A stretch of 60,000 bases of DNA from positions 7,677,394-7,737,393 of the forward strand of contig NC_087084.1 in NCBI RefSeq assembly GCF_026151205.1, read 5' to 3'. The notes beneath the pieces were generated by a model. That model was not told where the DNA came from, ran no database searches, and saw nothing but the letters and a program-made list of their open reading frames with translations. Below are positions 5,801 through 51,945 of the stretch, piece after piece (position 1 is the first letter of the stretch; each line of letters begins with the position of its first letter). This DNA is from Bolinopsis microptera (taxonomy: Eukaryota > Ctenophora > Tentaculata > Lobata > Bolinopsidae). The position numbers and the translations under genes were made by a program.

Positions 5801-8800
5801 TCAGCTAATCATTTCTTTATTATCTCGTACTTCAGTCATCTCTGCTGTTCCTGGAACTTCTCCGTCTTGTACTGCCACACAATCCATCTCAATGGTCTCA
5901 ACTGGTGATGATCGGTAAATTCTTGAACCAGTGATTAGGGTTCCGAGTCTTTGGATAGGTAAGCTTATAAGGTTTGTTACAGTTTTATCATAGATTAGTG
6001 GGTTTATGACGGAGTTGATCGGTAAAACAATCATGGAAAACAGGCCATACCATGGTGTTGCATCTAGAACCTCAAGGGAATGTAGAACACATATCATTAT
6101 GAAAGGTACCCAGCAAAGGAAATCTGTAGTGATAATGATGGCGATTCTTAAGTTCATTTTCCTATTGCGTTGTGAAATCTGTTGGTTCCCTCCTGACTGT
6201 GTCAAACTTTTAGAAGATTTGCGAGATATGATGCCAATGATCAAGTATGAGGCTGTAATGAAAAAGAAGCACACAAAGTTCAGGGCAAGAATTGCCCATA
6301 CCAAGTGCCTCTGTGGATCATTGACCATTGTCTTTGACAAAATATTTGAAGAGGCAAACACCATCGTTTCCATAGAAATCCACCTTTTGGATGTTTTTCG
6401 TGTAGTTTTCATAACCATTATCGTGAGAATACATCTCGGACATCATTTTGTTGATCATACGCCAGCTTAGTGTTGTTTCCTTCATTCTACCAAAGTATCC
6501 TTGAAAGGCAGCAAATAGTGTCTGCTTGTTCATTGTTCCAATAAATACCTTTATCTCTTCTGCATACTTCACTCCATTGACAAAGAAGTCCTCGAATTTG
6601 GAAATAATTGGGATTACAGCAATGACAATGGACGCCAACGTCATCATTAAAACACCTCCTGCAACTTGGAGTGATTTTACCAATGTAACTTCTCCCGGAA
6701 TTCTCATGGATTTGTGTATTCCGTAAATTCGGGTGAGGCTCAATGCACACATAGCAAAAAGCGAGACTTGACATCCTATGGTGCTAAGAACTCCAATAGT
6801 TGAACATTGGATGCTGGTAATCCATCCGATCTGTTGGGTACAATAATCTATCTTGAAGATTACACCATCATAAATTGATATGACCAATAAGTAGATACCA
6901 ACTAAAAGGTCTCCAAACGATATCATCATGATGAGGGACTTATTAAACAGAGCTACAGTAGTTCTACAGTTCTTTAAGGTTCCAGTATTTTTGGATATGA
7001 TGATAAAATTAGCCAAGACGGCTAGAAATCCTATAATCCATGATGAAAATTTGAGAGCATTCCCTTCTAGAATTTCTCTAGAACACTGATTATTGCATTC
7101 GTCTGTTAAATCCAGGCAGTCAAATGATCCGTCACATTTCTTTGTCACCGGTATGTAACTACCGTTACATTTGAAATTATTTGTGCAGCTGTCTTCATCC
7201 GAACCATCCCCGCAATCATCGATGAGATTGCATACTTGGGAATAATCAATGCAAGTGATATTATTGTCACAGACGAAATATCTATTCGTATAAATATTTC
7301 CATATGATTTTGTGACAAATGTTAGGAATTCGTTATTGGCTATCGTCCCTATTCTTTTATGATATTGTCCTGGACACGCCTCATACCTAGGAATATTTCT
7401 CAGTGGACAGGAAGAGTTGATACACTTTTCTGCACAACTAGTGTACAAATATTGTTCTCCAAACATGTGGTCACAATTTTGAGTAACATTTGGCATTATA
7501 ACCGTTGTATTGGTTCCTCCGTAAACGTTTTCATTTGAAAATATAAACGTGCTAATCGTGAAGCAATGATTTTTGAAGTTTTTAGTGTTTTTTATCCCCT
7601 TTATGCAGTATGATAAATGCTTTATTAGGCTTTTGTCAGTTGTTAAAACAGTTGTGGACAGTTTCGGTTGTTTGCGGGAGTCAGAGCAGATCTTATTTTC
7701 ATTTCCACATGTTTCAACTCAATCACATAGTTTACTGAATTCCACATATCCAGGATCACCCCATGGACAAAGGTACACATTTTCACACGACGTGTCTTTG
7801 CTGATAACATATCTTAATGATTTGGTGCTCCCACAAGTAGGCCAACTGTCATCTTCGTCGATTTCACTCAAACAGTCCTTAAACCCATCTCTTAACCAAG
7901 CTAGAGGTATTGGGAGTTCCCCTTTCTGGCAGCCACGTCTTTCACACTTTACCAGTGTCATGGTGATGCAGATACGATCAGTTTCATCACTTTTATCATT
8001 GCAGTCTGGTTGACCATCACACATTAAGTGCCTGTGAACAGTACACTGACTAGAGGTTTGTATGCACTGGTTCTCAAAGTTATCGTCACATATTGCCTTT
8101 TTACCAAAGCAGATCATATATTTTGATACAGAGGACAAGTATCCGTTAACAAGACATCTTACCCCTACTTTGGCGGGATCTGTACTGTTTGTGTGAAATG
8201 AAGCATAATCACTGCTCCTGCAGTAATCGCCACGAAAATGACCCATTAACTGGTAATTTAACACTGCACATCTTGTAAAGTTGTGTACTGGTACTGTACG
8301 TCCAGTATTCCAATGTTCACAAGTATACTGTGTTTCATTAGTAACGGTACACTTAGCTTCGTCCTCTCCGTTAACACAGTCTTTATTTCCATCACATATT
8401 ATGTATGGTGGTATGTACTTTACTATTCCTGGTGTATACTTATCGTCACAATACATACCATATCTATATCCGTTACAGGTAGCCTCGTCCTCACAGTAGT
8501 AATAATCACAAACATCATTACAGATTTTGCTGGACGCTACCTTTTCCCCACTCGGCATAGTTATCAGTTCGCTGCATCCCTCCTCATCTAATTCTGTATT
8601 AGCACAGTCATGTTCACCGTTACAAATAAATTCATTATATTGTACTGAGTTCACGATGTCCCACGATTGTTTACATAGAAATCCTCCACAAAGCATGTTG
8701 CCATTTTTCACGTCAATATCATTTACAGTGACACTGGCATCACCACAAGCCTGATAATAGTGCGGATCATCTGAACATAAAGCTGTCACTTCATTCCAGT

Positions 8801-9186
8801 AGTTCGTCGAATAATACTCCTCTGTGTTGTGGCACTTATTATAGGGCGTGTATTGATCGTTCCCCTGGTTCGTACATACCTGTTTCAAGAATCCTCTGTC
8901 TTCTTGAAAACTGCACAATTCTGCAAAGTATTTTCATGAGCAATGTGCAATAAGCTAAGCTTTTTATTCATTTACTTAAAACAAAAATTACTATCTTTAA
9001 ACTGATATAGGTCGATTTTAATTTTTACACGTAATGATATAACTACTCAACTATATATAAGTAATAATTACCTTCAGACCATGACCAAGGATCTGTCATT
9101 CCTAATGAGCTTGTGGTAGTATAAATCGATGTCGCTGTATCTGATTTACCAAGTTTCAACAGGATCAGTAATATTGCAAGTTTCAT
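5801..9186 (-). pseudogene. LDLa-containing 7TM receptor, disabled paralogue
   Basis: Same two-exon structure as the intact gene at 37557-40917. Exon 1 is 9072-9186 (signal peptide start MKLAILLILLKLGKSD; donor G|GTAATT) and exon 2 runs from 8920. The reading frame is very similar to the intact copy but has two breaks: a TGA at 7719-7721 where the paralogue has a Gly codon (after FSKLCD, in an LDLa-like repeat), and a 7-bp net insertion near 6321-6331 before TM5 that shifts the frame. Between the breaks the LDLa repeats and TM1 to TM4 stay readable (6318-7496), and after the shift TM5 to TM7 and the tail are open (5801-6418). A poly(A) signal (TTTATT on +) is at 5661-5666. It is best called a recent pseudogene; a truncated soluble ectodomain from the part before the TGA is a less likely alternative. 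Confidence 0.88.
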
Positions 9187-19440: not shown

Positions 19441-22400
19441 ATATATCCACCAGCGTGCGCTTTTTCGCATAGCGGGCTCTCACCAGCCCGCTGTCAAAGG
19501 GCCCGATATCTCTACAGCCCGCTCATGATATAGCCCGCTAACAAGTGACATTTAATTTGACCAGTAGCAATATAGCCTGGAGTTCTCTAAAATATTTTCA
19601 GTTTCTGTATCGTCTCCATGTGAAATTCCTTATTACACTGACTATATATACATTTTATTTTTGTGTCCGGTAGGGCTGCTCATGCAGCTCGTGAGCAGAT
19701 GACATGATACTTTGATTTATATCAAAGTTATTATAACACACTACATAATACACATCAGCACTATAATCCCCCTATATTATTGATATTCATCGTCATTGAC
19801 ATTACATTCATTATTCCCACGGCCCAGGAATGCAGTGCATCTCCAGCCCCTATATACGACACAGCCCTTTATGATTGGCTTACATTGAACACGTGACGTG
19901 TTACCATGGTTACAACAATTAGTGGCGACCTTTTCTAGAGTTGGCTTTTATACAAGCTCCATTGTTTATTTATAAAATTATATATTAACTGTAATACGCC
20001 CGCTGGTGGATATAATCCACATCACCTCGACCCGCGGGCGGAAAAATCGTATAGCACTCGGGCCCGATGGGCCCTCCGTGCTATACGAAAATATGTCCTC
20101 CTCGGGCTAGCGCCCTCGGGGACATATGAAATATTGCACGCGCGTGCGCGTGCAATATTTTGTTCCGCCCGCGAGTCTCCGGTGATATGTATATATATCC
20201 ACCAGCGTGCGCTTTTTCGCATAGCGGGCTCTCACCAGCCCGCTGTCAAAGGGCCCGATATCTCTACAGCCCGCTCATGATATAGCCCGCTAACAAGTGA
20301 CATTTAATTTGACCAGTAGCAATATAGCCTGGAGTTCTCTAAAATATTTTCAGTTTCTGTATCGTCTCCATGTGAAATTCCTTATTACACTGACTATATA
20401 TACATTTTATTTTTGTGTCCGGTAGGGCTGCTCATGCAGCTCGTGAGCAGATGACATGATACTTTGATTTATATCAAAGTTATTATAACACACTACATAA
20501 TACACATCAGCACTATAATCCCCCTATATTATTGATATTCATCGTCATTGACATTACATTCATTATTCCCACGGCCCAGGAATGCAGTGCATCTCCAGCC
20601 CCTATATACGACACAGCCCTTTATGATTGGCTTACATTGAACACGTGACGTGTTACCATGGTTACAACAATTAGTGGCGACCTTTTCTAGAGTTGGCTTT
20701 TATACAAGCTCCATTGTTTATTTATAAAATTATATATTAACTGTAATACGCCCGCTGGTGGATATAATCCACATCACCTCGACCCGCGGGCGGAAAAATC
20801 GTATAGCACTCGGGCCCGATGGGCCCTCCGTGCTATACGAAAATATGTCCTCCTCGGGCTAGCGCCCTCGGGGACATATGAAATATTGCACGCGCGTGCG
20901 CGTGCAATATTTTGTTCCGCCCGCGAGTCTCCGGTGATATGTATATATATCCACCAGCGTGCGCTTTTTCGCATAGCGGGCTCTCACCAGCCCGCTGTCA
21001 AAGGGCCCGATATCTCTACAGCCCGCTCATGATATAGCCCGCTAACAAGTGACATTTAATTTGACCAGTAGCAATATAGCCCGGAGTTCTCTAAAATATT
21101 TTCAGTTTCTGTATCGTCTCCATGTGAAATTCCTTATATTACACTGACTATATATATAATATTATACATTTCATTTTTGTGTCCGGTAGGGCTGCTCATG
21201 CAGCTCGTGAGCAGATGACATGATACTTTGATTTATATCAATGTTATTGTAACACACTACATAATACACATCAGCACTATAATCCCCCTATATTATTGAT
21301 ATTCATCGTCACTGACATTACATTCATTATTCCCACGTAACGGCCCGGGAATGCAGTGCATCTCCAGCCCCTATATACGACAAAGCCCTTTATGATTGGC
21401 TTACATTGAACACGTGACGTGTTACCATGGTTACAACAATTAGTGGCGACCATTTCTAGAGTTGACTTATATACAAGCTCCATTGTTTATTTATAAAATT
21501 ATATATTAAATGTAATACGCCCGCTGGTGGATATAATCCACATCACCTCGACCCGCGGGCGGAAAAATCGTATAGCACTCGGGCCCGATGGGCCCTCCGT
21601 GCTATACGAAAATATGTCCTCCTCGGGCTAGCGCCCTCGGGGACATATGAAATATTGCACGCGCGTGCGCGTGCAATATTTTGTTCCGCCCGCGAGTCTC
21701 CGGTGATATGTATATATATCCACCAGCGTGCGCTTTTTCGCATAGCGGGCTCTCACCAGCCCGCTGTCAAAGGGCCCGATATCTCTACAGCCCGCTCATG
21801 ATATAGCCCGCTAACAAGTGACATTTAATTTGACCAGTAGCAATATAGCCTGGAGTTCTCTAAAATATTTTCAGTTTCTGTATCGTCTCCATGTGAAATT
21901 CCTTATTACACTGACTATATATACATTTTATTTTTGTGTCCGGTAGGGCTGCTCATGCAGCTCGTGAGCAGATGACATGATACTTTGATTTATATCAAAG
22001 TTATTATAACACACTACATAATACACATCAGCACTATAATCCCCCTATATTATTGATATTCATCGTCATTGACATTACATTCATTATTCCCACGGCCCAG
22101 GAATGCAGTGCATCTCCAGCCCCTATATACGACACAGCCCTTTATGATTGGCTTACATTGAACACGTGACGTGTTACCATGGTTACAACAATTAGTGGCG
22201 ACCTTTTCTAGAGTTGGCTTTTATACAAGCTCCATTGTTTATTTATAAAATTATATATTAACTGTAATACGCCCGCTGGTGGATATAATCCACATCACCT
22301 CGACCCGCGGGCGGAAAAATCGTATAGCACTCGGGCCCGATGGGCCCTCCGTGCTATACGAAAATATGTCCTCCTCGGGCTAGCGCCCTCGGGGACATAT

Positions 22401-23605
22401 GAAATATTGCACGCGCGTGCGCGTGCAATATTTTGTTCCGCCCGCGAGTCTCCGGTGATATGTATATATATCAAAGTTATTATAACACACTACATATAAT
22501 ACACATCAGCACTATTATAATCCCCCTATATTATTGATATTCATCGTCACTGACATGACATTCATTATTCCCACGGCCCAGGAATGCAGTGCATCTCCAG
22601 CCCCTATATACGACATTACAGCCCTTTATGATTGGCTTACATTGAACACGTGACGTGTTACCATGGTTACAACAATTAGTGGCGACCTTTTCTAGAGTTG
22701 ACTTTTATACAAGCTCCATTGTTTATTTATAAAATTATATATTAACTGTAATACGCCCGCGCGCTGGTGGATATAATCCACATCACCTCGACCCGCGGGC
22801 GGAAAAATCGTATAGCACTCGGGCCCGATGGGCCCTCCGTGCTATACGAAAATATGTCCTCCTCGGGCTAGCGCCCTCGGGGACATATGAAATATTGCAC
22901 GCGCGTGCGCGTGCAATATTTTGTTCCGCCCGCGAGTCTCCGGTGATATGTATATATATCCACCAGCGTGCGCTTTTTCGCATAGCGGGCTCTCACCAGC
23001 CCGCAGTCAAAGGGCCCGATATCTCTACAGCCCGCTCACGATATAGCCCGCTAACAAGTGACATTTAATTTGACCAGTAGCAATATAGCCCGGAGTTCTC
23101 TAAAATTTTTTCAGTTTCTGTATCGTCTCCATGTGAAATTCCTTATTACACTGCAACTATATAATACATTTTATTTTTGTGTCCGGTAGGGCTGCTCATG
23201 CAGCTCGTGAGCAGATGACATGATACTTTGATTTATATCAAAGTTATTATAACACACTACATAATACACATCAGCACTATAATCCCCCTATATTATTGAT
23301 ATTCATCGTCACTGACATTACATTCATTATTCCCACGGCCCAGGAATGCAGTGCATCTCCAGCCCCTATATATACGACACATCCCTTTATGATTGGCTTA
23401 CATTGAACACGTGACGTGTTACCATGGTTACAACAATTAGTGTCGACCTTTTCTAGAGTTGACTTTTATACAAGCTCCATTGTTTATTTATAAAATTATA
23501 TATTAACTGTAATACGCCCGCTGGTGGATATAATCCACATCACCTCGCGCGTGCGCGTGCAATATTTTGTTCCGCCCGCGAGTCTCCGGTGATATGTATA
23601 TGTAT
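19441..23605. repeat. 752-bp satellite, six head-to-tail units
   Basis: Unit boundaries by the CCACCAGCGTGCGC motif: 19447, 20199, 20951, 21720, then a unit lacking its first ~260 bp starting near 22472, then 22960. Periods are 752, 752, 769, 752, 488 and about 645 bp. The first, second and fourth units are virtually identical; the third differs by small indels; the last lacks part of the hairpin block. Each unit has a GC-rich hairpin block at its right end and smaller hairpins at its left end. A 66-aa minus-strand ORF repeated in four units crosses the hairpins and is not credible as a gene. Family B continues on both sides, so the array is an insertion into it. Confidence 0.95.
20001..20207. 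other. Multi-branched hairpin block of the satellite (representative)
   Basis: Nested inverted repeats: outer stem CGCTGGTGGATATA (20001-20014) with its complement at 20194-20207, then ATCACC (20021-20026) with GGTGAT (20181-20186), then CGCGGGCGGAA (20033-20043) with its complement at 20163-20173. Inside are three terminal hairpins: arms 20047-20057/20078-20088, arms 20091-20098/20120-20127, and a GC/AT palindrome 20129-20160. The layout is a cloverleaf-like fold of about 207 nt. Equivalent blocks lie near 20753-20959, 21522-21728, 22274-22480 and 22766-22968. Confidence 0.85.
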
Positions 23606-23850
23606 CGCGTGTAATTGGATCCATATATAGGAGCTGCGCAATTATTGCAGCATCTTGATCTGGTATCACCTTCTGAAACCTAGCAGGCAGCTGGGCCAGA
23701 AATTTGAAGATAGAAGGATTTTTGTTAATGAATATCGAAGCGAAAATCATGTAACCCTATGTTTTCGAGGACGCTGAACACGATAAAACTGGTTATAATT
23801 ATCATAGGTACTCAAGGGCAAATTACTTTAAAATGCACTTGGCTGTCATA
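23606..23850 (+). repeat. Repeat family B, right part
   Basis: Continues family B after the satellite (GTGTAATTGGATCC onward) and matches 10262-10525. It lacks the GACGCCACCAGCAGC block of the copy at 10 kb. The ORF at 23496-23750 is a shadow. Confidence 0.7.
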
Positions 23851-25448: not shown

Positions 25449-25735
25449 TATATATATATATATATATGATGTTTCTTTTGGAGAAATCCAGTTTCAAGAG
25501 TGCTCTACCCGGGAGGGGAGCATTGTACAATGAAAACAACGATTCTACAAACTCAGAGTTTCATGCAAATGCAATCGTCAGTGTTAGAATAACTTACTAA
25601 ATTAATAAATCCATGTTTTCCTTACAAGCTCCTTCATAAAATTAACTTAACTAAACTAAATCAAAAAACAAAATCAAACGAAACGAAACGAAAATGAAAT
25701 ACAAGAACAAAAACTAAAATTGAAATAAAATATTC

Positions 25736-26541
25736 CTAAAAGCATTTCTTCAGCATAAACTTGTTGGTGTGCCTACATTTACTTATGAGTTCCCTCCCCC
25801 TATTTAATAGATTGCCATCTTTATTTAAAATAATGTAAAGTTTTTCAGTAAGGCAGAGATGACAATCTTTCGTACCCCCCTTGTACGGATGAGCATGTTT
25901 GATTATTTTCCAAGATATTTTATATGGTGTTTGTTTATCTTTCAACTCCCATATTTTCTTAGATAGCTCCGTCTGATTTCGTAGCTTCTCGAGTTTGAAA
26001 GAGCTTGTGTGTGAACTGAAACGGGTCTTAAAAGTGTTTTCAGTAAGCCCAATATATTTGTGCTCTTTCTTTTCCTTTTCCACTGCAATAGTTGCTTCAT
26101 ATATCACTGCTGCTTCCAGGCATTGTCCGTTCAGTGGGCACATTTCAGGCTTTCTGCAATTGCACGTTTTCGATTTAATTGTGGGTTCTTTCTGAGCTTG
26201 GTGTCTGGTGCTCGCTAAGATGGATCCTACGTTGGGTAGGCAACTGTATGATAGCTTAATTGTGTTTCTGTTGAACATTTTGTGAAATTGGTGTCCTCTG
26301 GGGAAGTGCTTGTCTAGTAATCGGAGGAAGCTTTTGCCTATGTTTGTTGTTACATTTGAGCTGTATGGGGGGTTGAACCATATGATCTTCCTGGATCTCT
26401 TCCTGTTGGCTCGTGGCATGGCGGTGCTAGTATCTGTAAACTCTAGTTGGTGGTCGTGACCGCTTTCTTTAAGTGCTGTTCCGTAAATCCCTTTCGCTTT
26501 GTCAAACTCTTCTTTATTGCAGGAGATGTCCGATAGACGCC
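25736..26541 (-). pseudogene. Penelope-like element, 3' half with GIY-YIG endonuclease
   Basis: Open frame of at least 227 aa (26419-25736), readable upstream to about 26541. It has the linker motif IIWFNPPYSSNV...NIGKSFLRLLDKHFP typical of PLE C-termini, a Cys/His cluster (CNCRKPEMCPLNGQC) and the GIY-YIG-type nuclease start (HKYIGLTENTFKTRFSSH) with a later KISWKI segment. The RT domain is missing: the copy is cut at 26541, where an inverted second copy begins. The 3' flank (25530-25735) is shared with 31380-31510. Confidence 0.85.
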
Positions 26542-26593
26542 GAAGATCATATGGTTCAACCCCCCATACAGCTCAAATGTAACAACAAACATA
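26542..26593 (+). pseudogene. Left piece of the second, inverted PLE copy
   Basis: Plus-strand copy of the same PLE region, beginning at GAAGATCATATGG, head-to-head with the minus copy. It is cut by the TIR transposon after ACAAACATA (26593) and resumes at 30774. Confidence 0.8.
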
Positions 26594-27242
26594 TAGTTAG
26601 GGACAATTAACATTAATATAGAACCATCTGGGAAAAAATTTGCGACAAGCTGATTTTTACAGGAATGTGTTGTCCATAGTGTCAGGAACCACCCCAAAGA
26701 GTTTTGAATCTGGATCTGTTAAGCAAAAAAAGTTACAGCCAATTTTCTTCAGGTGCGTATGTCAGCCTGAGGACTGCACTTGAAAAACTCGTAACTATCG
26801 TAATAAAGACCCCCAGGAGCACCATAGGGGGTGCAAAATGACCGCAATAGTGACATTATGTGGGGCGAATCAGTGTTTTAGGGTCGTCAGATCTTTACTT
26901 ATTGAGATAATTTCATTTTTATAGGCTAACCTCTCAAAAATTTACTAAAATTTTGAAATTTTACTTAAATTTGGAAATTTAGCAAAATTGTTGTACAATT
27001 AAAACATTGTCTAGTTATCAGTATTCAAATTCTAAAATTTAATTTCAATTGTCAATTGATCCTTATATTAGTATAGTAAATAATATACATATCACATCAA
27101 ATTCTGTAAAAAAAGGTCCTGAATTATTAGCATGGTGTCTTTGATTGGCAACTATTAGGTCACTTCTGGCTATTCCATTTCCTCAGAGTTGTTTGATTCT
27201 CCTGAATCGTCCTGTCTTTCGGGTGCATTAGTGCAACTTAAT
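26594..27242 (+). repeat. Left terminal inverted repeat (649 bp)
   Basis: Pairs with 30137-30773. Its inner part overlaps the last codons (about 27170-27242) of the nuclease gene. A hypothetical ORF at 26443-26697 spans the insertion edge and is a shadow. Confidence 0.9.
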
Positions 27243-30119
27243 CCATGACATTGGCCACATGCAGGTAGACATTTAAAGCCATACTTCCGGCAGGAACACC
27301 TTAAGTACTTACAAGGGTTCTCAACCTCCACCGAGCAATTGCAGCAAATGAGGTTGAGCATCCCTGCCGGGGCAATCGCAGCTTTAGTCGGGATTGGCCG
27401 GTATTATCTTTCAGAACTCATCTCCCATCCATAATGTAGTGGATTTAGACTTGCAGTGTCGAGTGTCACCCAGTTATGGTACTGAAGATATGATCTTAAT
27501 ATATGCTCAGTTGCAGAGGATGTAGACGGTGGTAGCCTTGATGGGTTGAGTTTTTCTTTGCTATCATTCTACTGTAGCTGAGAAATCTGAGAGTTTCAAG
27601 TGCCTTGGTTTTATTTCCATAGATATGTTGAAACAGGGAGAGGCCAGCTTCAATTACTTCATTTGTTGAAACTCTCACAGAGAGTAATGATGCTAAATGA
27701 CCCTCCTCGTGAAAAGAAACTGCCTTTTTCAATATCTTCACCTTACCAAAGCCATGTATACTGCTGACCGTGTCACATCCTGAGAAACTGTGAACAAACA
27801 GTAATATGCGTTTTATGTTGGCATCAAGAGCATTTACTATTTTACTGATCGAGTGTGAGCCGTTTCTGGTCGTCATCACAATTTCATTGTGATTCTCAGT
27901 AAAATGATGAATAAGGAGGCAAAGTATATCAGTATCCTCTGCTTTTACCTCAACATCTTCGTAGAAGGACAAGTTTAAAGCTTTACTAGCTACCATGGTA
28001 TCAGCATCATCAGTAGCTACATGTACTTCAATTCCATGTTCTGTAAAAACGTTCGACAGAAGCTTTATAAGCTCATGCTTGTTCTTTGAGTTGCTGAACA
28101 GTTTTTTCATCGGAACTGTGCATACAGTAGTACTTTTAATAGCTATATCAGAGCAGTATGCCTTGATTCTTCGCTGATGCTCATGATCTTTTGTTGATCG
28201 GGCATAGCCATCAAACACAACAATCACTTTCCGCTGTTCGGATTTCGGAACTAGCTTAAGGTATTCATTAGCTATGTCGCCGTATGTTTCAAAGCCTGTG
28301 AACGAGGTAACTTGATAGAGTAGCCATCCACCATCAATTATTAATGGGGAGGATGGGTTGCTAAATGTCACAGTACAATCAACAACATTCTTGAGGTATT
28401 GCCCAAGGGCTGCCTTGTTTGCCTTTCTCATCATCTGCTCATTGTTAAAAAGACTCATCGGCATTGCTGTGAGCTCATATTGCAAGCTTTCCTCCAGTGT
28501 AGACTCTCGTTCAGATGCGAAGACAAGCCGATTAAAAATTGTCAATGAGTCTATAACAATATCTTTTTCGTTCACCCTCACTGTCCTCTTTAGAAGGGTC
28601 AAGTTTCCGACTTTGCCTTTAACTCGAAACTTATCGATAAAGCTTTTGCCATCCAGCTCTTTCTGGAGGGCAGTACCAACTGAAATGCAATCTTCTGGGT
28701 TGACATTATCCTTCTCTTTCTGTGATATGAGACCCGTTGAGTACGATAGCATTTTAGTCTTGTCTTCAGATTCGTCGAAATCAGCTGTATCTTTAAACCA
28801 ACACAACAGCTTGGTAAACACTGCAATATTTTTCTGTACAGAAGATTTGCTAAGATCTGAGTGATTAGTACTAGAGGCTTTTGTTGTTGTTCTTTTATTG
28901 GATAAGTCTGCAATAGCTTCATCGACACTCTCGTTTATCAACGCCATTTGATTGAGGGTTGCAGTCCATAACTTATGGGCAGATTCATGAGTTCGCATTC
29001 TCCCTCCAGACAAACCCCCTGATGACTATGCAGCCTTCATTAGTCGCTGTTCGATCGACAGGTCTGTCCACACACCAGACCACTCGTGTTCATTATATCG
29101 AACTGTGTGCAGACCTACGACCTTGAACGTTTTGACTAGTGCCCCATACTGAATCTCAAACTTACGGTAATCTGCTCAAGATACAGCCGTAGAGCCTTGG
29201 AGTACTGACCTCGACCTGCTGCTGCAAAGATAGGCAACATCTTAGCCAAAATTGCAAGATGTAGATCGAAGTCATGTAACTGTTCTGCTCTTATAAAATC
29301 TTTTATTAAGCAAATGAAACCATGATAAGTTGTCCAAAGAGCAGCTGTGCGGCTGTTCGACGATAACATCTCGAACTTCTTTTTTATACGCTCTGATAAC
29401 TCTTGTACGGCTCTGGTCTTGTGGTTTACACCGAGTTTTTCATTGCTACACTTGGCAATGTAGCTAACCATATCTTCAAGATCCTCCTCTGCTATTTTGT
29501 CCTCGAATAAATAGCAGCAGAGAGCACAATATATTAAAAAGTGGGCCCTCAGTGCTTTGTAATAGGATCCATCGTCCATTATGTGAGTTACATCCCCAGG
29601 GTAGACTAATCTCATAAGGTCTTCCAGTCTGGAGTCTGCCATGATATAACCCACACACCCCAAAAAGCTTTTCAGGGTGTGGAAGCCTCCCAGCCTAACA
29701 ATAACTGGCATTCCTTTCTCGAGAACTATCCGACTAGCCTTCAACCAAAGTGGTAAATCGAATGTGATTACCGTCGGTTTGATTGAGGCTGTCTTCAAGT
29801 ACTCAATAAGTGTTGTATAGACTGTTGAGTAGCTGTCTGGGGGTTGATCGATTATCTGCAGGAACTTAATTTGTGATCTTGCCTTCACATTGGGCTTATG
29901 CAGCGATTTCATGAAACCTTTCCAATTGACGGGAGGATTGGCATGGGTAAGTTTCATGAAAATGAGCCACGCTGCATAAAAAGCGGTGTCTCCAAAGCAA
30001 GAGGTATCATAAACAAACTTTCGCTGTTGTTTATCAAATGGCCTGAATGTGACTGTGCTTAGACCATTTTCTTTGAGGGGGTGATAGGGGTAAACCTTTA
30101 TTGTTAGATCATTAAGCAA
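27170..30119 (-). pseudogene. Transposon protein: conserved N-terminal region, XPG/FEN1-like nuclease, Cys-rich C-terminus (broken)
   Basis: Three ORFs are pieces of one protein: 29136-30119 (327 aa), 27496-29013 (505 aa) and 27170-27361 (63 aa). The sequence between them continues coding in shifted frames (for example LHTVRYNEHEWSGVW near 29090 and ILRSYLQYHNWVTLD near 27465). Breaks: a frameshift near 29155, a TAG just before 29013, a frameshift near 27535 and a TAA near 27400. The middle part has a flap-nuclease pattern: VVFDGYA...HQRR, ATDDADTMVASKAL, KAEDTDILCLLIHH, then FSGCDTVSSIHGFGKVKILKK as a GCD plus helix-hairpin-helix-like segment. The C-terminus is a Cys cluster (CKYLRCSCRKYGFKCLPACG). 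I know related long proteins as multicopy 'uncharacterized' genes in invertebrates. The N-terminus is lost at the right TIR. Confidence 0.8.
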
Positions 30120-30136
30120 AGTTGCTTTTTCGTCAA

Positions 30137-30773
30137 TTAAGTTGCACTAATGCACCCGAAAGACAGGACGATTCAGGAGAATCAAACAACTCTGAGGAAA
30201 TGGGATAGCCAGAAGTGACCTAATAGTTGCCAATCAAAGACACCATGCTAATAATTCAGGACCTTTTTTTACAGAATTTGATGTGATATGTATATTATTT
30301 ACTATACTAATATAAGGATCAATTGACAATTGAAATTAAATTTTAGAATTTGAATACTGATAACTAGACAATGTTTTAATTGTACAACAATTTTGCTAAA
30401 TTTCCAAATTTAAGTAAAATTTCAAAATTTTAGTAAATTTTTGAGAGGTTAGCCTATAAAAATGAAATTATCTCAATAAGTAAAGATCTGACGACCCTAA
30501 AACACTGATTCGCCCCACATAATGTCACTATTGCGGTCATTTTGCACCCCCTATGGTGCTCCTGGGGGTCTTTATTACGATAGTTACGAGTTTTTCAAGT
30601 GCAGTCCTCAGGCTGACATACGCGCCTGAAGAAAATTGGCTGTAACTTTTTTTGCTCAACAGATCCAGATTCAAAACTCTTTGGGTGGTTCCTGATACTA
30701 TGGACAACACATTCCTGTCAAAATCAGCTTGTCGCAAATTTTTTCCCAGACATTTTGCATTATTCCCTAACTA
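30137..30773 (-). repeat. Right terminal inverted repeat (637 bp)
   Basis: Inverted copy of 26594-27242, near identical, with small differences concentrated at the outer ~60 bp. It contains an inverted copy of the codons for the protein's last ~22 residues (30141-30208 on the plus strand). Confidence 0.9.
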
Positions 30774-31379
30774 ATAGGCAAAAGCTTCCTCCGATTACTA
30801 GACAAGCACTTCCCCAGAGGACACCAATTTCACAAAATGTTCAACAGAAACACAATTAAGCTATCATACAGTTGCCTACCCAACGTAGGATCCATCTTAG
30901 CGAGCACCAGACACCAAGCTCAGAAAGAACCCACAATTAAATCGAAAACGTGCAATTGCAGAAAGCCTGAAATGTGCCCACTGAACGGACAATGCCTGGA
31001 AGCAGCAGTGATATATGAAGCAACTATTGCAGTGGAAAAGGAAAAGAAAGAGCACAAATATATTGGGCTTACTGAAAACACTTTTAAGACCCGTTTCAGT
31101 TCACACACAAGCTCTTTCAAACTCGAGAAGCTACGAAATCAGACGGAGCTATCTAAGAAAATATGGGAGTTGAAAGATAAACAAACACCATATAAAATAT
31201 CTTGGAAAATAATCAAACATGCTCATCCGTACAAGGGGGGTACGAAAGATTGTCATCTCTGCCTTACTGAAAAACTTTACATTATTTTAAATAAAGATGG
31301 CAATCTATTAAATAGGAGGAGGGAACTCATAAGTAAATGTAGGCACACCAACAAGTTTATGCTGAAGAAATGCTTTTAG
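30774..31379 (+). pseudogene. Second PLE copy, GIY-YIG endonuclease part
   Basis: The 180-aa frame 30837-31379 is essentially identical to the minus copy at 25736-26279 (one visible Gly-to-Arg change near the end). It carries the same HKYIGLTENTFK nuclease start and CNCRKPEMC cluster. The coding sequence upstream is separated by the TIR transposon, which was inserted between ACAAACATA and GGCAAAAGC. Confidence 0.85.
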
Positions 31380-31985
31380 GAATATTTTATTTTAATTTTA
31401 GTTTTTGTTCTTGTATTTCATTTTCGTTTCGTTTCGTTTGATTTTGTTTTTTGATTTAGTTTAGTTAAGTTAATTTTATGAAGGAGCTTGTAAGGAAAAC
31501 ATGGATTTATTAATTTAGTAATCTCATTAAACTATATAAAAAATAAGTATAAAGAATAAGGAAAAGGAACGGGAATGAAGCCAATACCAGAAGTGAAACC
31601 CCACCAAAGAATAATTGATCCTTAGGTAGACCTGGTGAAATAAAGTAACTGAACTGTAAGTTTAAGAAAAGACGGAAGGAATAAAGGAGAGATGAAATAA
31701 TGTTATGTGAACATCATCAGCAGATGACTTGGCACACCGGTTTCGGGGGTTTAATACCTGTACCGGTTTAATGTGCCAAGACCCCCTAGCAATCACTCGT
31801 CAGTGATCACCTGTTCACGTTAAATGTGATGTCAAGGATGTCGCTGACATCAAGTATACTGTATTTGTACAGAATACTAAGTTATTCTAACACTGACGAT
31901 TGCATTTGCATGAAACTCTGAGTTTGTAGAATCGTTGTTTTCATTGTATATATATATATATATCGTCTCGCTTTATATATAGTAA
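31380..31985 (+). repeat. PLE 3' flank with a hairpin
   Basis: 31380-31520 and 31880-31955 mirror the flank of the minus copy (25525-25735). About 350 bp between them (31525-31880) is absent from that copy. It contains a long hairpin, with arms CTTGGCACA (31729-31737) and TGTGCCAAG (31772-31780), plus inner CCGGT/ACCGG pairs. No ORF. Confidence 0.65.
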
Positions 31986-37556: not shown

Positions 37557-40500
37557 CTAATCATTTTTTTGTTTGTCTCGTACTTCAGTCATCTCTGCTG
37601 TGCCTGGAACTTCTCCGTCTTGTACTGCCACACAATCCATCTCAATGGTCTCAACTGGTGATGATCGGTAAATTCTTGAACCAGTGATTAGGGTTCCGAG
37701 TCTTTGGATAGGTAAGCTTATAAGGTTTGTTACAGTTTTATCATAGATTAGTGGGTTTATGACGGAGTTGATCGGTAAAACAATCATGGAAAACAGGCCA
37801 TACCAGGGTGTTGCATCTAGAACCTCAAGGGAATGTAGAACACATATCACTATGAAGGGTACCCAGCAAATGAAATCTGTAGTGATAATGATGGCGATTC
37901 TTAAGTTCATTTTCCTATTGCGTTGTGAAATCTGTTGGTTCCCTCCTGACTGTGTCAAACTTTTAGAGGATTTGCGAGATATGATGCCAATGATCAAGTA
38001 TGAGGCTGTAATGAAAAAGAAGCACACAAAGTTCAGGGCAAGAATTGCCCATACCAAGTGCCTCTGTGGATCATTTTCTTTGACAAAATATTTGAAGAGG
38101 CAAACACCATCGTTTCCATAGAAATCTACCTTTTTGATGTTTTTCGTGTAGTCTTCATAACCATTATCGTGAGAATACATCTCGGACATCATTTTGTTGA
38201 TCATACGCCAGCTTAGTGTTGTTTCCTTCATTCTACCAAAGTATCCTTGAAAGACGGCAAATAGTGTCTGCTTGTTCATTGTTCCAATAAATACCTTTAT
38301 TTCTTCTGCATACTTCACTCCGTTGACAAAGAAATCCTCAAATTTGGAAATAATTGGGATTACAGCAATGACAATGGACGCCAACGTCATCATTAAAACA
38401 CCTCCTGCAACTTGGAGTGATTTTACCAATGTCACTTCTCCCGGAATTCTCATGGAGTTGTGTATTCCGTAAAGTCGGGTGAGGCTCAATGCACACATAG
38501 CAAAAAGAGAGACTTGCGATCCTATGGTGCTTAGAACTCCAATAGTTGAACATTGGATGCTGGTAATCCATCCGATCTGTTGGGTACAATATTCTTCCTT
38601 GAAGATTACACCATCATAAATTGATATGACCAATAAGTAGATACCAACTAAAAGGTCTCCAAAAGATATCATCATGATAAGGGACTTATTAAACAGAGCT
38701 ACAGTAGTTCTACAGTTTTTCAAAGTTCCAGCATTTTTGGACATGATGATAAGATTTGCCATGACGGCTAAAAATCCTATAACCCACGATGACCATTTGA
38801 TAGCATTCCCTTCTAGTAGTTGTCTTGAGCACTGGTCATTGCATTCGTCTGTCAAATCCAGGCAGTCAAATGATCCGTCACATTTCTTTGTCACTGGTAT
38901 GTAGCTACCGTTACATTTGAAGTTATTTGTGCAGCTGTCCTCATCCGAACCATCCCCGCAATCATTTATGAGATTGCATACTTGGGAATAATCAATGCAA
39001 GTGATATTATTGTCACAGACGAAATATCTATTCGTATAAATATTTTCATAGGATTTTGTGACAAATGTTAGGAATTCGTTATTGGCTATCGTCCCTATTC
39101 TTTTATGATATTGTCCTGGACACGCCTCATATCTAGGAATATTTTTCAGTGGACAGGAAGAGTTGATACACTTTCCTGCACAACTAGTGTACAAATATTG
39201 TTCTCCAAACATGTGGTCACAATTTTGAGTAACATTTGGCATTATAACCGTTGTATTGGTTCCTCCGTAAACGTTTTCATTTGAAAATATAAACGTACTG
39301 ATGGTGAAGCAATGATTTTTCAAGTTTTTTGTGTTTTTTATCCCCTTTATGCAGTAAGATAAATGCTTTACCAGGCTTTTGTCAGTTGATAAAACAGTTG
39401 TGGACAGTTTCGGTTGTTTGCGGGACTCAGAGCAGATCTTATTTTCATTTCCACATGTTTCAACTCCATCGCATAGTTCACTAAATTCCACGTATCCAGG
39501 ATCACCCCATGGACAAAGGTACACATTTTCACACGACGTGTCTTTGCTGATAACATATCTTAATGATTTGGTGCTCCCACAAGTAGGCCAACTGTCATCT
39601 TCGTCGATTTCACTCAAACAGTCCTTAACCCCGTCTCTTACCCAAGCTAGAGGTATTGGGAGTTCCCTTTTCTGGCCGCCACGTCTTTCACACTTTACCG
39701 GTGTCATGGTGATGCAGATACGATCAGTTTCATCACTTTTATCTGTGCAGTATGGTTGACCATCACACATTAAGTGTCTATGAACAGTACACTGACTAGA
39801 GGTTTTGATGCAATGGTTCTCAAAGTTATCGTCACATATTGCCTTTTGACCAAAGCAGATCATATATTTTGATACAGAGGACAAGTATCCGTTAACAAGA
39901 CACCTTACCCCTACTCTGGCGGGATCTGAACAGTTTGTGTGATATGAAGCAAAATCACTGCAGTACTTGTTGTAATAGTCTAACCCTGCACATCTTGTAA
40001 ACTTGTGTACTGGTACTGTAAGTTTAGTATGGTAATGTTTACAAGTGTACTGTGTTTCATTAGTAACGGTACAGATAGCTTCGTCTTCTCCGTTAATACA
40101 GTCTTTTCGTCCATCACATATGATGTTTGGTGGCATGTAGTTTACTATTCCTGTTGTATACTTATCGTCACAATACATACCGTATCTGTATCCGTTACAG
40201 GTAGCCTCGTCCTCACAGAAGTACCCATCACATTCATCATTACATATTAGATCGGACGCTATCTTAGTCCCACTTGGCAAAGTTATCAGTTCGCTGCATC
40301 CCTCCTCATCTAATTCTGTATTAACACAGTCATGTTCACCGTTACAAATTATTTCACTATCATGTACTGAGTTCACGATGTCCCACGAAAGGTTACAGAT
40401 AAATCCTCCACAAAGCATGTTGCCATTTCTTATGTCAATATTATTTACAGTGACACTGGCATCACCACAAGCCTGATAATAGTGCGGATCATCTGAACAT

Positions 40501-40917
40501 AAAGCTGTCACTTCTTTCCCGTTGTTCGTCGAATAATACTCCTCTGTGTTGTGGCACTTATTATAGGGCGTGTATTGATCGTTCCTCTGGTTTGTACATA
40601 CCTGTTTCAAGAATCCTCTGTCTTCTTGAAAACTGCATAATTCTGCAAAGTATTTTCAAGAGTGATGTGAAATAAGATAATTTTGTCATTCATTTACTTA
40701 AAACAAAAATGACTGTCTTTAAACTGATATAAGTCGATTATAATTATAACACGTAATGATATAACTACTCAACTATATATAAGTAATAATTACCTTCGGA
40801 CCAAGGATCTATCATTCTGAATGAGCTCGATATCGTGTGGTGACTTTGTGATGGCGAAGCTCTATCTGATTTACCAAGTTTCACCACTAACAGGATCAGT
40901 AATTTCGCAAGCTTCAT
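37557..40917 (-). CDS. LDLa-repeat seven-transmembrane receptor (GRL101/relaxin-receptor-like class A GPCR)
   Basis: Two coding exons: 40794-40917 (signal peptide; starts MKLAKLLILLVV; donor G|GTAATT) and 37557-40642 (acceptor CTTTGCAG), giving 1069 aa with codon Glu42 split by the intron. Residues ~43-655 are an extracellular Cys-rich region with about six LDLa-type repeats (signatures such as CNGEHDC...DEEGC, CDGRKDCINGEDEAIC, CGDGSDEDSC, CDGSFDCLDLTDEC) and many N-x-S/T sites. Seven hydrophobic helices follow from ~660 to ~1008, with LTRLYGI after TM3 in place of DRY and NPLIY (1004-1008) ending TM7, then a ~60-aa tail. LDLa plus 7TM is the architecture of relaxin-type and molluscan GRL101 receptors, though I see no leucine-rich repeats. 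It probably binds an extracellular ligand and signals through G proteins; both are unknown. Intact, unlike its paralogue at 5801-9186. Confidence 0.9.
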
Positions 40918-48184: not shown

Positions 48185-51100
48185 CATACATGTTACATGT
48201 TACATGGCGAGATCTCCATCCAAAAGGATTAGTCTGCGTCGACTGCGTCATTACTTTGTATTATACAACTTCGGCGGGTAACATTTCTCCATCCCTTTCG
48301 GTCTGCAGCTAATCTTCTCATACAATCAATCGTGAGTCCATTACGATCCAATCTCTGCTCAGCATCCTCAATGAATACATCATTTAAGCTCTTCCTAGGC
48401 CTGCCTCTTGATCTCTTCCCATGCTTGGGTTTCCATTCAAGTAAATAGTTGGGCAACCGATCTTCAGGCATTCTACTGACATGTCCAAACCAACGCAGCC
48501 GTTTTGTTGTTATTATGTCAGCAAGGGCAGTTATCGATGCCCTTCTTAAAACATCCTCATTACTTACTCGATGGAACCACCTCACTCTCAGGATTCTTCT
48601 TAAGCAGTACTGATGGAAAGACTCCAATCTTCTTGTCTGCACTTGAGTCGTGTTCCATATCTCACATCCATAGGTCAGAATGGTAAGAACAGCTGCGATG
48701 TAGATTCGCACTTTGTTGTTAATGCTTATGTTCTTATTCTTCCAAATGTTGTTGAGTTGGTTAAAAGCTCCGGTTGCTTTTCCAATCCTGACACTTATTT
48801 CTTTATCAATCTTGCCATCTGATGTAATTTTGGCACCCAAATAAGTGAATTGAGTGACCTGCTTTGCAGAGTTTCCATCGACAGTTATATCTATGGTCCT
48901 ATTCTCTGGGAGTGGGTGCTGCGATGTATCTTTCCCAATGACCATGATCTCTGTTTTCTTTGCGTTCATCTTTAAACCCCCAAGTCCACAGTATTTCGCA
49001 ATATTGTCCGTAGTTTCTTGCAGTCCTTCAACAGTGTCATCCATTCCTGCGATGTCATCAGCATAGTCAAGATCAATGACACATTTTTCCGGTTGTCTGG
49101 AACTTTGTCTGTACTGAAGTGTAAAACCACGGGATATATTCTTAAACTTCTCTGCAAGTTCTAATCCCCAGTTAAGTACAAGATTAAAAATAGGGGGCCC
49201 TTGCACATCACCTTGTCCAGTCCCCGAATCGACATCAAACCATCTTGTCAATTCTCCATTGACACGAACTGCACTTTCAGTTGCTCTAAAGAACGCTTTG
49301 AAAACATTGATATATTTTGTCGGAAGACCATAATGTTCAAAAGCTTTCCAAATAAAGTCACGATTGATTGAATCAAAAGCAGCTTTAAAATCAATAAAGT
49401 TTATGTACAAAGGGACGTTGAATTCTATACAATTGTGTATTATACAATGAAGTGAGTACAGCTGATCTATACAAGAACGGTTTCTCCTGAAACCACACTG
49501 ATTCTCTCTGAGTAATTTTTCAAGCCCATTACTCAGTCTTTTTAACAACACAATTTGGAATAACTTTGATATAGTTGAGCGTAAAGTTATACCTCTGTTA
49601 TTGTTGCAATATGTGAGGTCCCCTTTCTTTGGGATGATGGTGATTATTCCTTTTCTCCAATCATTAGGAATATCCTCACTTTTCCACACAGTTTCAAAAA
49701 GATCCTTTAACCAAGGCAGAAGTCCAGGAGAACCGTACTTTAACTGCTCATTTGAAATTTCATCAATTCCAGCACTCTTGTAGTTCTTCAACTTCTTGAT
49801 AGCTTCCTCAATTTCAAACAAGGACGGTGGTTCATCATCATTACTAAGGTATTCAAAAGAAAGTAACTTTTCATCCTGATCCAATATAGAGAAATCCACC
49901 GCATTTGCTGCTGGCGTCAAGAGTTCTTCAAAATATTCGGCCCAGCGATGTGATTGAGCTTCGGGATCTGATATAAGCGTCCCATTCTTATCCCGCACTG
50001 CCGCAGATCTGTTTACTCTCTTGTTTGTTAGGGATTTTATTTTCTGCCAAACATCTCTTTGTTGACCCTGCTTGGCAGCATCTTCTAATTCCTCAGCTAT
50101 TCTAACAGCCCAAGCATTATCATCTCTTTTACAGTTCTGCCTAACAAGACCGTTAATCCGCGAGTACTTAGCACGGTTCTCAGCAGTACTGGGTTTCTTT
50201 TTAATCTCCCCTCGTTCTTTTAGGAGATTCTTAGTATCCCTTGAGAGATGTTCTGTTCTCTTTTTCCGGCCCCTTTCACCCAGAACTTCAAATGAAACAT
50301 CAGTTATTATATCTCTTAAATTTTGCCACTGTTCTTCTAAAGGAGAGTTTCCATGCTCCTGATCGTTGTTATAGTACTCTTCAGCTATTCTGTTACTATA
50401 TTCCTGGCTCTTAGATCTATCACGCAGGTGCTCTAAAGCAGGCTGTCTTACACGCTTCTTTCTTTTCTGAGGACACTTAAGTTTAATAGATACATATCCT
50501 CTAACCAGATAGTGAGTAGTATTTATATCTGCTCCTCTCATGCTCCTGACATCAAGCAAAGAATGGCTCCATCTCGTCGAAATACACATATGGTCAATTT
50601 GAGTGACGGTGTTACCATTTGGGGATCTCCATGTTGTCTTGTGGATATCCTTGTGTTCAAAGAGTGTGCCTCCAATCGTCAGCTGGTGCATAGTACAGAA
50701 ATCTAGCATCCGTTTTCCGTTATCATTTGATTCTGTGTGATATGAGTGTTTTCCTATAACACCAGGGTGAGCATCAGTATCCCTTCCAACACGAGCATTA
50801 AAATCTCCTAAAACTATTTTTATATCATGAGCAGGTAGTCCCGATTGAACATCATTCAATTCCTTGTAGAATGAGTCTTTTAAACTGACTTCTGCATCCT
50901 CAGTTGGAGCATACACAACTGTAACACTAATGTTGATGTGTTTGCTATGTAAACGGGCAGTCATAACCCGTCCTGATACAGGGGTGTATGATATGAGAGT
51001 ATTCTTCATCTTTTTGGAAAGAACAACACCAACTCCTTCTCTCCGTACTCCATCGCTCCTGCCAGAATAAACCAAAACAGCCCCATTGCTCAAAGTCTGA

Positions 51101-51945
51101 GTTCCTGATCCAGCCATATGTGTTTCAGTTACCCCAAGGAGCTCTAGTCCATAATCATCAACACCTTTTCCTAATTGATACATCTTACTGGAATTACTGA
51201 CAAGAGAAGTAACATTCCATGTACTGATACAGAGAGGATTCTTTACAATATTTACAGGATTAGACATACTTGACTGTCTGTTTACAAATGACAAATCTGA
51301 TGAAGGAATTCTGTATTTACAGTGTTTACGTCGGCTCTTACGGGAGTTGCAAACAGACATCAAGCTACTAGGGTCCTTTCGGCTTTGCCTAGTCGCCGTC
51401 ATCACTCCACCTGCGCCTCCACGTATAATACTATTGAATGACACTGTAGACGTTTCTGTAGCGGTTTGATTTAAGGTGGATGGTTTGCCGGACCTTCGCA
51501 CCCGATCCAGAGGCAGCACCGACATCAAGAAGTTAGCGCTCCGTCCAGACACCAGCAAGCTGGTGGTTAGGTTCGATACGTTAAATTAAAGCATGAAGAG
51601 CTTCTGAAGCCCATAGGGAATCAAAATTAAACCGTAAGTGATCATGTCAGAGACAAGATCACCAAGCAAATGCTCGATTACACAGGGCAACCAAGACTTG
51701 GACAAAATGGTGAACCGTGAGTGACACACAGATGACCCTGCCACAAGACAGCATCACCGAGCACCACCCAGCAATTGCATCCTCTCGCCACCACAGCAAC
51801 CGACCCCCCAGTGATATAGCACTGACAGGCAATTAACGGTTTTATGGTGTTACCACTCCCAGGTGATCTGTGCTAACAGACTCGGACCAGATGCAATGGG
51901 GAGCATACCAGATGCAATGGGGAGCAACCAGATGCAATGGGGAGC
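48185..51945 (-). mobile_element. Full-length intact non-LTR retrotransposon (RTE-like)
   Basis: Flanked by a perfect 11-bp target duplication AAATACCCTGA (48174-48184 and 51946-51956) within a family A element. The 3' end (left) has tandem ATGTAAC units instead of poly(A). The 5' end (right) has three tandem copies of a ~20-bp unit containing CAGATGCAATGGGGAGCA, which may be promoter monomers. One uninterrupted ORF. All this points to a recent insertion. Confidence 0.92.
48229..51558 (-). CDS. LINE polyprotein: AP-type endonuclease + reverse transcriptase (1109 aa)
   Basis: Residues ~110-355 form the EEP endonuclease (STWNVTSL 112-119, TETH, YAPTED 216-221, GDFNAR 251-256, IDHM 321-324). 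The final motif, normally SDH, reads TTH at 347-349, so an aspartate of the metal site is replaced while the histidine is kept. Residues ~600-900 form the RT: IPKKGD, NNRGITLRSTISK, QCGFRRNRS, FIDFKAAFD (721-729), GQGDVQGPP and catalytic YADD (832-835). The C-terminus has a RWFGHVSRMPEDRLP segment and a basic GRPRKS motif. It would nick target DNA and copy its own RNA by target-primed reverse transcription in the nucleus. No stop or frameshift. The first Met is the longest choice; a start at Met53 or Met67 is possible. Confidence 0.92.
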   Translation of the reverse strand: MLVSGRSANFLMSVLPLDRVRRSGKPSTLNQTATETSTVSFNSIIRGGAGGVMTATRQSRKDPSSLMSVCNSRKSRRKHCKYRIPSSDLSFVNRQSSMSNPVNIVKNPLCISTWNVTSLVSNSSKMYQLGKGVDDYGLELLGVTETHMAGSGTQTLSNGAVLVYSGRSDGVRREGVGVVLSKKMKNTLISYTPVSGRVMTARLHSKHINISVTVVYAPTEDAEVSLKDSFYKELNDVQSGLPAHDIKIVLGDFNARVGRDTDAHPGVIGKHSYHTESNDNGKRMLDFCTMHQLTIGGTLFEHKDIHKTTWRSPNGNTVTQIDHMCISTRWSHSLLDVRSMRGADINTTHYLVRGYVSIKLKCPQKRKKRVRQPALEHLRDRSKSQEYSNRIAEEYYNNDQEHGNSPLEEQWQNLRDIITDVSFEVLGERGRKKRTEHLSRDTKNLLKERGEIKKKPSTAENRAKYSRINGLVRQNCKRDDNAWAVRIAEELEDAAKQGQQRDVWQKIKSLTNKRVNRSAAVRDKNGTLISDPEAQSHRWAEYFEELLTPAANAVDFSILDQDEKLLSFEYLSNDDEPPSLFEIEEAIKKLKNYKSAGIDEISNEQLKYGSPGLLPWLKDLFETVWKSEDIPNDWRKGIITIIPKKGDLTYCNNNRGITLRSTISKLFQIVLLKRLSNGLEKLLRENQCGFRRNRSCIDQLYSLHCIIHNCIEFNVPLYINFIDFKAAFDSINRDFIWKAFEHYGLPTKYINVFKAFFRATESAVRVNGELTRWFDVDSGTGQGDVQGPPIFNLVLNWGLELAEKFKNISRGFTLQYRQSSRQPEKCVIDLDYADDIAGMDDTVEGLQETTDNIAKYCGLGGLKMNAKKTEIMVIGKDTSQHPLPENRTIDITVDGNSAKQVTQFTYLGAKITSDGKIDKEISVRIGKATGAFNQLNNIWKNKNISINNKVRIYIAAVLTILTYGCEIWNTTQVQTRRLESFHQYCLRRILRVRWFHRVSNEDVLRRASITALADIITTKRLRWFGHVSRMPEDRLPNYLLEWKPKHGKRSRGRPRKSLNDVFIEDAEQRLDRNGLTIDCMRRLAADRKGWRNVTRRSCIIQSNDAVDAD

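Follow-up and report, generated by a model that had tools for sequence, protein, structure and literature searches.

We regard it as likely that an AcademX-type transposon is present, as a recent copy that is not autonomous, at positions 26594-30773 of the window, by which we mean the whole stretch of 60,000 nucleotides analysed, and that the master gene of the family encodes a putative transposase and an XPG/FEN1-like nuclease in a single protein. This segment fits AcademX in the length of the target duplication and in the pair of enzymes, both as given in the published description of the group, which served for the comparison in place of Academ sequences. The features on which this reading is based are located in the window as follows.

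25594..26390, minus strand: empty site, an inverted copy of the target without the insertion
26591..26593: left ATA target duplication
26594..27242: left TIR, 649 bp, with an outer end of the l type (TAGTTAGGGACAATTAAC)
27170..27361, minus strand: ORF piece, Cys-rich C-terminal tail
27496..29025, minus strand: ORF piece, linker and probable XPG/FEN1-like nuclease domain
29026-29028, minus strand: TAG stop, just upstream of the nuclease ORF piece
29050..29052, minus strand: Glu codon, putative third catalytic residue (E716 in full-frame numbering)
29136..30119, minus strand: ORF piece, 327 aa, most of the putative DDE transposase domain
29757-29759, within the 29136..30119 ORF (minus strand): codon of the second Asp of the putative DDE domain
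30136..30773: right TIR, 638 bp, with an outer end of the r type
30774..30776: right ATA target duplication

The element spans 4,180 bp, and its outer ends, TAGTTAGGGA at 26594 and TCCCTAACTA at 30773, are those proposed in a first-pass annotation of the same DNA, which had also placed the TIRs correctly at about 640 bp. The two TIRs agree fully over their outer 10 bp and are unalignable over the following 23 bp (left) or 13 bp (right); beyond this stretch 610 of 616 aligned positions match (99%). The terminal letters of the element family are TAGTTAGGG. The insertion and the accompanying 3-bp duplication, ATA, are shown directly, because the flanks joined with a single ATA match the neighbouring uninterrupted copy of the target at 795 of 797 positions, in agreement with the earlier reading of this site. 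A 748-nt inverted repeat (25594-26341 and 30774-31521) flanks the element and contains an ORF whose motif, judged by eye, resembles GIY-YIG/Penelope; Pfam models did not match this ORF with E values up to 0.01.

Searches covered 264.65 Mb in 232 contigs, the only genome examined. Protein searches returned at least 100 matches to the nuclease ORF and at least 122 to the N-terminal ORF; with a 351-bp TIR piece as query, at least 40 scored matches came out of 224 candidates. All these counts refer to fragments and are lower bounds, not copy numbers. The left TIR of the window copy matches the TIR piece at 100%, and since the other 39 matches stand at 97-99% identity the family looks young; it also looks partly degraded. 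Each of the 14 copies for which both ends were read shows a 3-bp duplication. Ten belong to the window family and 4 to a sister family, which shares about 60% protein identity with the former and has ends TAGTTAGGGC. The triplets are ATA, AAC, TTA, TAT, TAC, AAA, CAA, TGT, GCA and TCT in the window family, and CTA, TCT, TAC and CTA in the sister family, where the flanks of L025, L032 and L035 were read by eye. Two calls are weaker: in L017 the triplet AAA is set in A-rich flanking sequence, and in L012 one side offers only four flanking bases. The count excludes single-ended copies, among them L036 and L030, which have altered outer ends; four further ends that were read had been picked for their position within about 60 bp of DNA in hand. 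Agreement in 14 of 14 copies, along with the 40 scored TIR matches, argues against a chance observation. Kolobok elements duplicate TTAA, which was not seen in the 14 copies.

Each of the 10 window-family copies with both ends available carries one l-type (TAGTTAGGGACAATTAAC) and one r-type (TAGTTAGGGAATAATGC) end, the two types differing over about 13-23 bp. Relative to the gene, the ends lie in one order in five copies (L010, L012, L013, L014 and L027), and in the opposite order in the other five (the window copy, L011, L015, L017 and L028). One end of each type in every copy, with the interior flipped in half of them, suggests either that the long TIRs recombine with each other or that both types of end are required.

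The full-length copy L010 (C7:12447076-12454769, 7,694 bp, duplication AAC) carries a single open frame of 1,342 codons that runs from the N-terminal part through the nuclease into the Cys-rich tail. Its TIRs measure about 400 bp, made up of 370 bp that align and of the outer ends, which differ. Transposase half and nuclease lie in one open frame in L039 as well; further upstream in L039 and in L047, stretches resembling more exons were noticed by eye. More distant relatives have open frames of 1,438-1,568 aa with the domain order of L010, save that in L129 an insertion is followed by loss of the Cys-rich tail from the frame. Over the matched stretch, their identity to the N-terminal part of the window copy is 29% (L129), 26% (L130), 28% (L131) and 24% (L132). 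Since L129 and L131 are 92% identical in DNA, the five long rows made up by L010 and these relatives represent four lineages at most. No TIR was found in 5.8-kb stretches from the distant families, and the two copies that were compared have a sharp 3' limit of homology.

Set against the full frame, the window copy begins at residue 128 of P0001, corresponding to residue 356 of the full frame, and contains two frame changes; the 5' part of the gene, first putative catalytic Asp included, is lost, and the TAG stop comes eight codons after the start of the E716 codon. The left TIR carries the last codons of the gene (minus strand), while the right TIR contains the last 23 codons again in inverted orientation, and lies where one would expect the 5' exons together with the first putative catalytic Asp. 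Late start, frame changes, stop and inverted 3' repeat together identify the window copy as a deletion derivative devoid of the first catalytic Asp. An inverted copy of the 3' end of the gene has taken the place of the lost 5' exons, bringing the TIRs from about 400 bp, as in the full-length copy, to about 640 bp. Because of the two frame changes and the stop, the window copy would most likely have been mobilised in trans.

The first-pass annotation had seen no DDE transposase in the element, overlooking the 327-aa ORF. DDE transposases carry D, D and E in this order, and an insertion may separate the second Asp from the Glu. In the alignment of the five long rows, numbered from the 1,342-codon frame, 93 columns are invariant; D312, N313 and D315 (D312-N-x-D315), D481, H507 and E716 are conserved in all five, and the order D312...D481...E716 fits a putative DDE triad whose second Asp and Glu are set apart by inserted sequence. 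D312, D481 and H507 are found also in the fragment L134a, 31% identical to the N-terminal part of the window copy; in the sister copy L049 a Gly stands in place of the Glu at the E716 position. No DDE model of Pfam matched any of the proteins scanned (window pieces, P0001, sister copies, L129-L132 and two L134 pieces), P0001 had no Pfam match of any kind at E up to 10, and sequence searches of PDB gave nothing below E 0.3. A scan of viral contigs with P0001 yielded 51 pattern matches, with no relative among them. Baculo_p33 and DUF1719 in the window pieces, and DUF3598_N and Sigma70_r1_1 in sister copies, were weak and senseless Pfam matches at E up to 10, and were discarded. In the transposase half of L130, residues 649-927 give a weak match (E 3.3e-4, 19.9 bits versus a cut-off of 27) to DUF6589, a functionally uncharacterised Pfam family; DUF6589 may be an Academ-type transposase domain, and no mention of it was found in the literature searched. 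H507 (GGFH), conserved 26 residues past D481 and thus between the second D and the E, is reminiscent of the C/DxxH motif reported in PMC10045372, from which the window family differs in having Gly in place of C/D.

The flap-nuclease-like motifs previously pointed out (VVFDGY, DDADTMVASKAL, KAEDTDILCLL and SGCDTVSSIHGFG) are present on the minus strand of the element, as is the Cys-rich ORF. XPG/FEN1 nucleases have six or seven metal-binding acidic residues in a fixed order. D955, D996, D1066, D1088, D1090 and D1142 are invariant in all five long rows, and profile alignments place the six in the same order as in FEN1. The FEN1 profile was made of 30 archaeal sequences (53 loci, of which 34 were entered and 30 were without stop or X), and was compared with the nuclease region in three anchorings of one eight-row alignment, which are not independent because the same eight rows were used. 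The L132-anchored profile scored 40.5 (E 7.9e-5, HHalign probability 61), the L010-anchored one 29.8 (E 0.0025, probability 12), and the L130-anchored one 17.6 (E 0.19, probability 0.3). With 30 column shuffles per anchoring, scores reached at most 24.9, 23.5 and 27.2, respectively, and the L130 score falls within its shuffles (mean 16.0). Reversed profiles scored 13.2 (L132), 11.8 (L010) and 15.4 (L130), the N-terminal domain, used as a control, 17.5, and a profile restricted to close relatives 27.3 (E 0.0074, probability 5). With two anchorings in favour and one not, the transposon protein probably includes an XPG/FEN1-like nuclease domain, as had been surmised from the motifs. The likeness to archaeal FEN1 extends over 205 and 223 columns in the two scoring anchorings; the differences from FEN1/XPG (Rad2) flap nucleases are that the relationship is very remote, that the middle region has no confident alignment, and that the domain is here embedded in a transposase protein. 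Pfam XPG_I matched none of the window pieces, P0001, sister copies, L129-L132 and the two L134 pieces, and the six matches of XPG_I in the genome all fall outside the loci of nuclease-ORF matches. The Cys-rich tail matches Pfam TCR/CXC above the cut-off in L132 (E 3.1e-5), and below it in L131 (E 0.015). The shared open frame, along with the conserved D...D...E residues and the six Asp, indicates that an uncharacterised N-terminal region, putative transposase, nuclease and Cys-rich tail are probably parts of one protein.

The nuclease of AcademX is of the XPG type, X standing for XPG, and we know of no other superfamily featuring such a duplication length and enzyme pair. According to PMC10045372, duplications are 3 or 4 bp long in AcademX and 9 or 10 bp in AcademH, and the difference is tied to the nuclease and the helicase that they respectively encode. 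Compared by description, the element shares with AcademX (Repbase) both the 3-bp duplication and the association of a (here putative) transposase with a nuclease, and no difference was found. With AcademH it has in common the superfamily name alone, as it features a nuclease and 3-bp duplications in contrast to a helicase and 9- or 10-bp ones; no helicase was matched by Pfam in P0001, L129-L132 and the two L134 pieces (E up to 10), or in the L039 part (E up to 0.01). Academ has been listed among known DNA transposon superfamilies (PMC4455052, PMC9587614), and among those with a DDD/E transposase (PMC9587614); a RecQ helicase is mentioned in Academ in PMC3627910. The word XPG does not occur in the available portions of PMC10045372, PMC9587614, PMC10799480 and PMC3627910, and no description of XPG in Academ is evident from titles in the literature searched. 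That no Pfam model reaches the cut-off over either enzyme domain, and that Academ is known here by description, would accord with a new superfamily distinct from Academ, in which transposase is fused to an XPG-like nuclease. We consider it improbable, since 3-bp duplications and a nuclease are the combination published for AcademX (PMC10045372), and the weak L130 match to DUF6589 hints at described relatives of the transposase half. The view that the locus could represent an undescribed transposon group is unsupported.

Selection has acted on both halves of the AcademX-type protein. When L010 is compared to the sister family, dN is 0.20-0.31, in the transposase half and in the nuclease half alike, while dS is saturated (NG86 undefined) save for one comparison (dS 4.7), and hence both halves have been kept by selection between families. 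Between L010 and the window copy changes are few, and constraint is not evident in the N-terminal part (dN 0.020, dS 0.019), as expected for a copy no longer working; the ratio in the nuclease part, 0.21, is based on very few changes. The XPG-like part might be regarded as a passenger, a captured host gene dispensable for transposition, and partner enzymes appear exchangeable, given that AcademH has a helicase where AcademX has a nuclease (PMC10045372). A passenger is expected to decay, whereas the six nuclease-type Asp are invariant in five of five long rows, even though in four of these rows identity to the N-terminal part of the window copy is no more than 24-29%; we give this explanation a slender chance. 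A transposase encoded by full-length relatives, with the nuclease captured, was the case that the first-pass annotation had set against its own reading: the likely transposase is there, but a nuclease that is in frame and conserved speaks against a recent capture. The notion that the nuclease is the sole enzyme and itself moves the element, inspired by its being the part most recognisable by eye and by the N-terminal part being a separate ORF in the window, is hardly tenable, since long-frame relatives have an in-frame N-terminal domain with invariant D, D and E, about as constrained as the nuclease.

In the AcademX-type model the DDE domain would act on both TIRs, excise the element, and integrate it across a 3-bp stagger in the target; the XPG-like domain would probably trim or cleave a strand left branched or flapped, either at the gap or where the element ends. 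A bolder proposal, tentative and in our opinion rather unlikely, is that the fused nuclease is obligate in transposition, either cleaving the non-transferred strand or resolving flapped ends left by the DDE domain. If true, these would be two-nuclease, single-protein transposases, and we know of no other cut-and-paste element with such a mechanism. What the nuclease does in Academ transposition is testable, as the family looks young and long open frames exist. The data, from one genome, also suggest that “XPG-like multicopy genes” of invertebrates are transposase genes rather than host nucleases, a distinction that matters for annotation.

Other features of the window are worth recording. Two receptor genes about 31.7 kb apart (37557-40655 and 5801-8933, minus strand) are 86-97% identical over the repeat pieces shown; one forms a single frame of 1,032 aa in which LDL-receptor-A and 7-transmembrane matches were obtained, and the other is broken up into three ORFs. 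A 1,118-aa frame at 48229-51585 (minus strand) encodes endonuclease and reverse transcriptase of the non-LTR retrotransposon type, and is flanked by two long blocks of short-unit satellite, one at about 47.1-48.0 kb and one at about 52.3-53.3 kb, which are oppositely oriented. At 19441-23636 a unit of about 752 bp is repeated in tandem, and several of its copies are 98-100% identical over 300-nt pieces.
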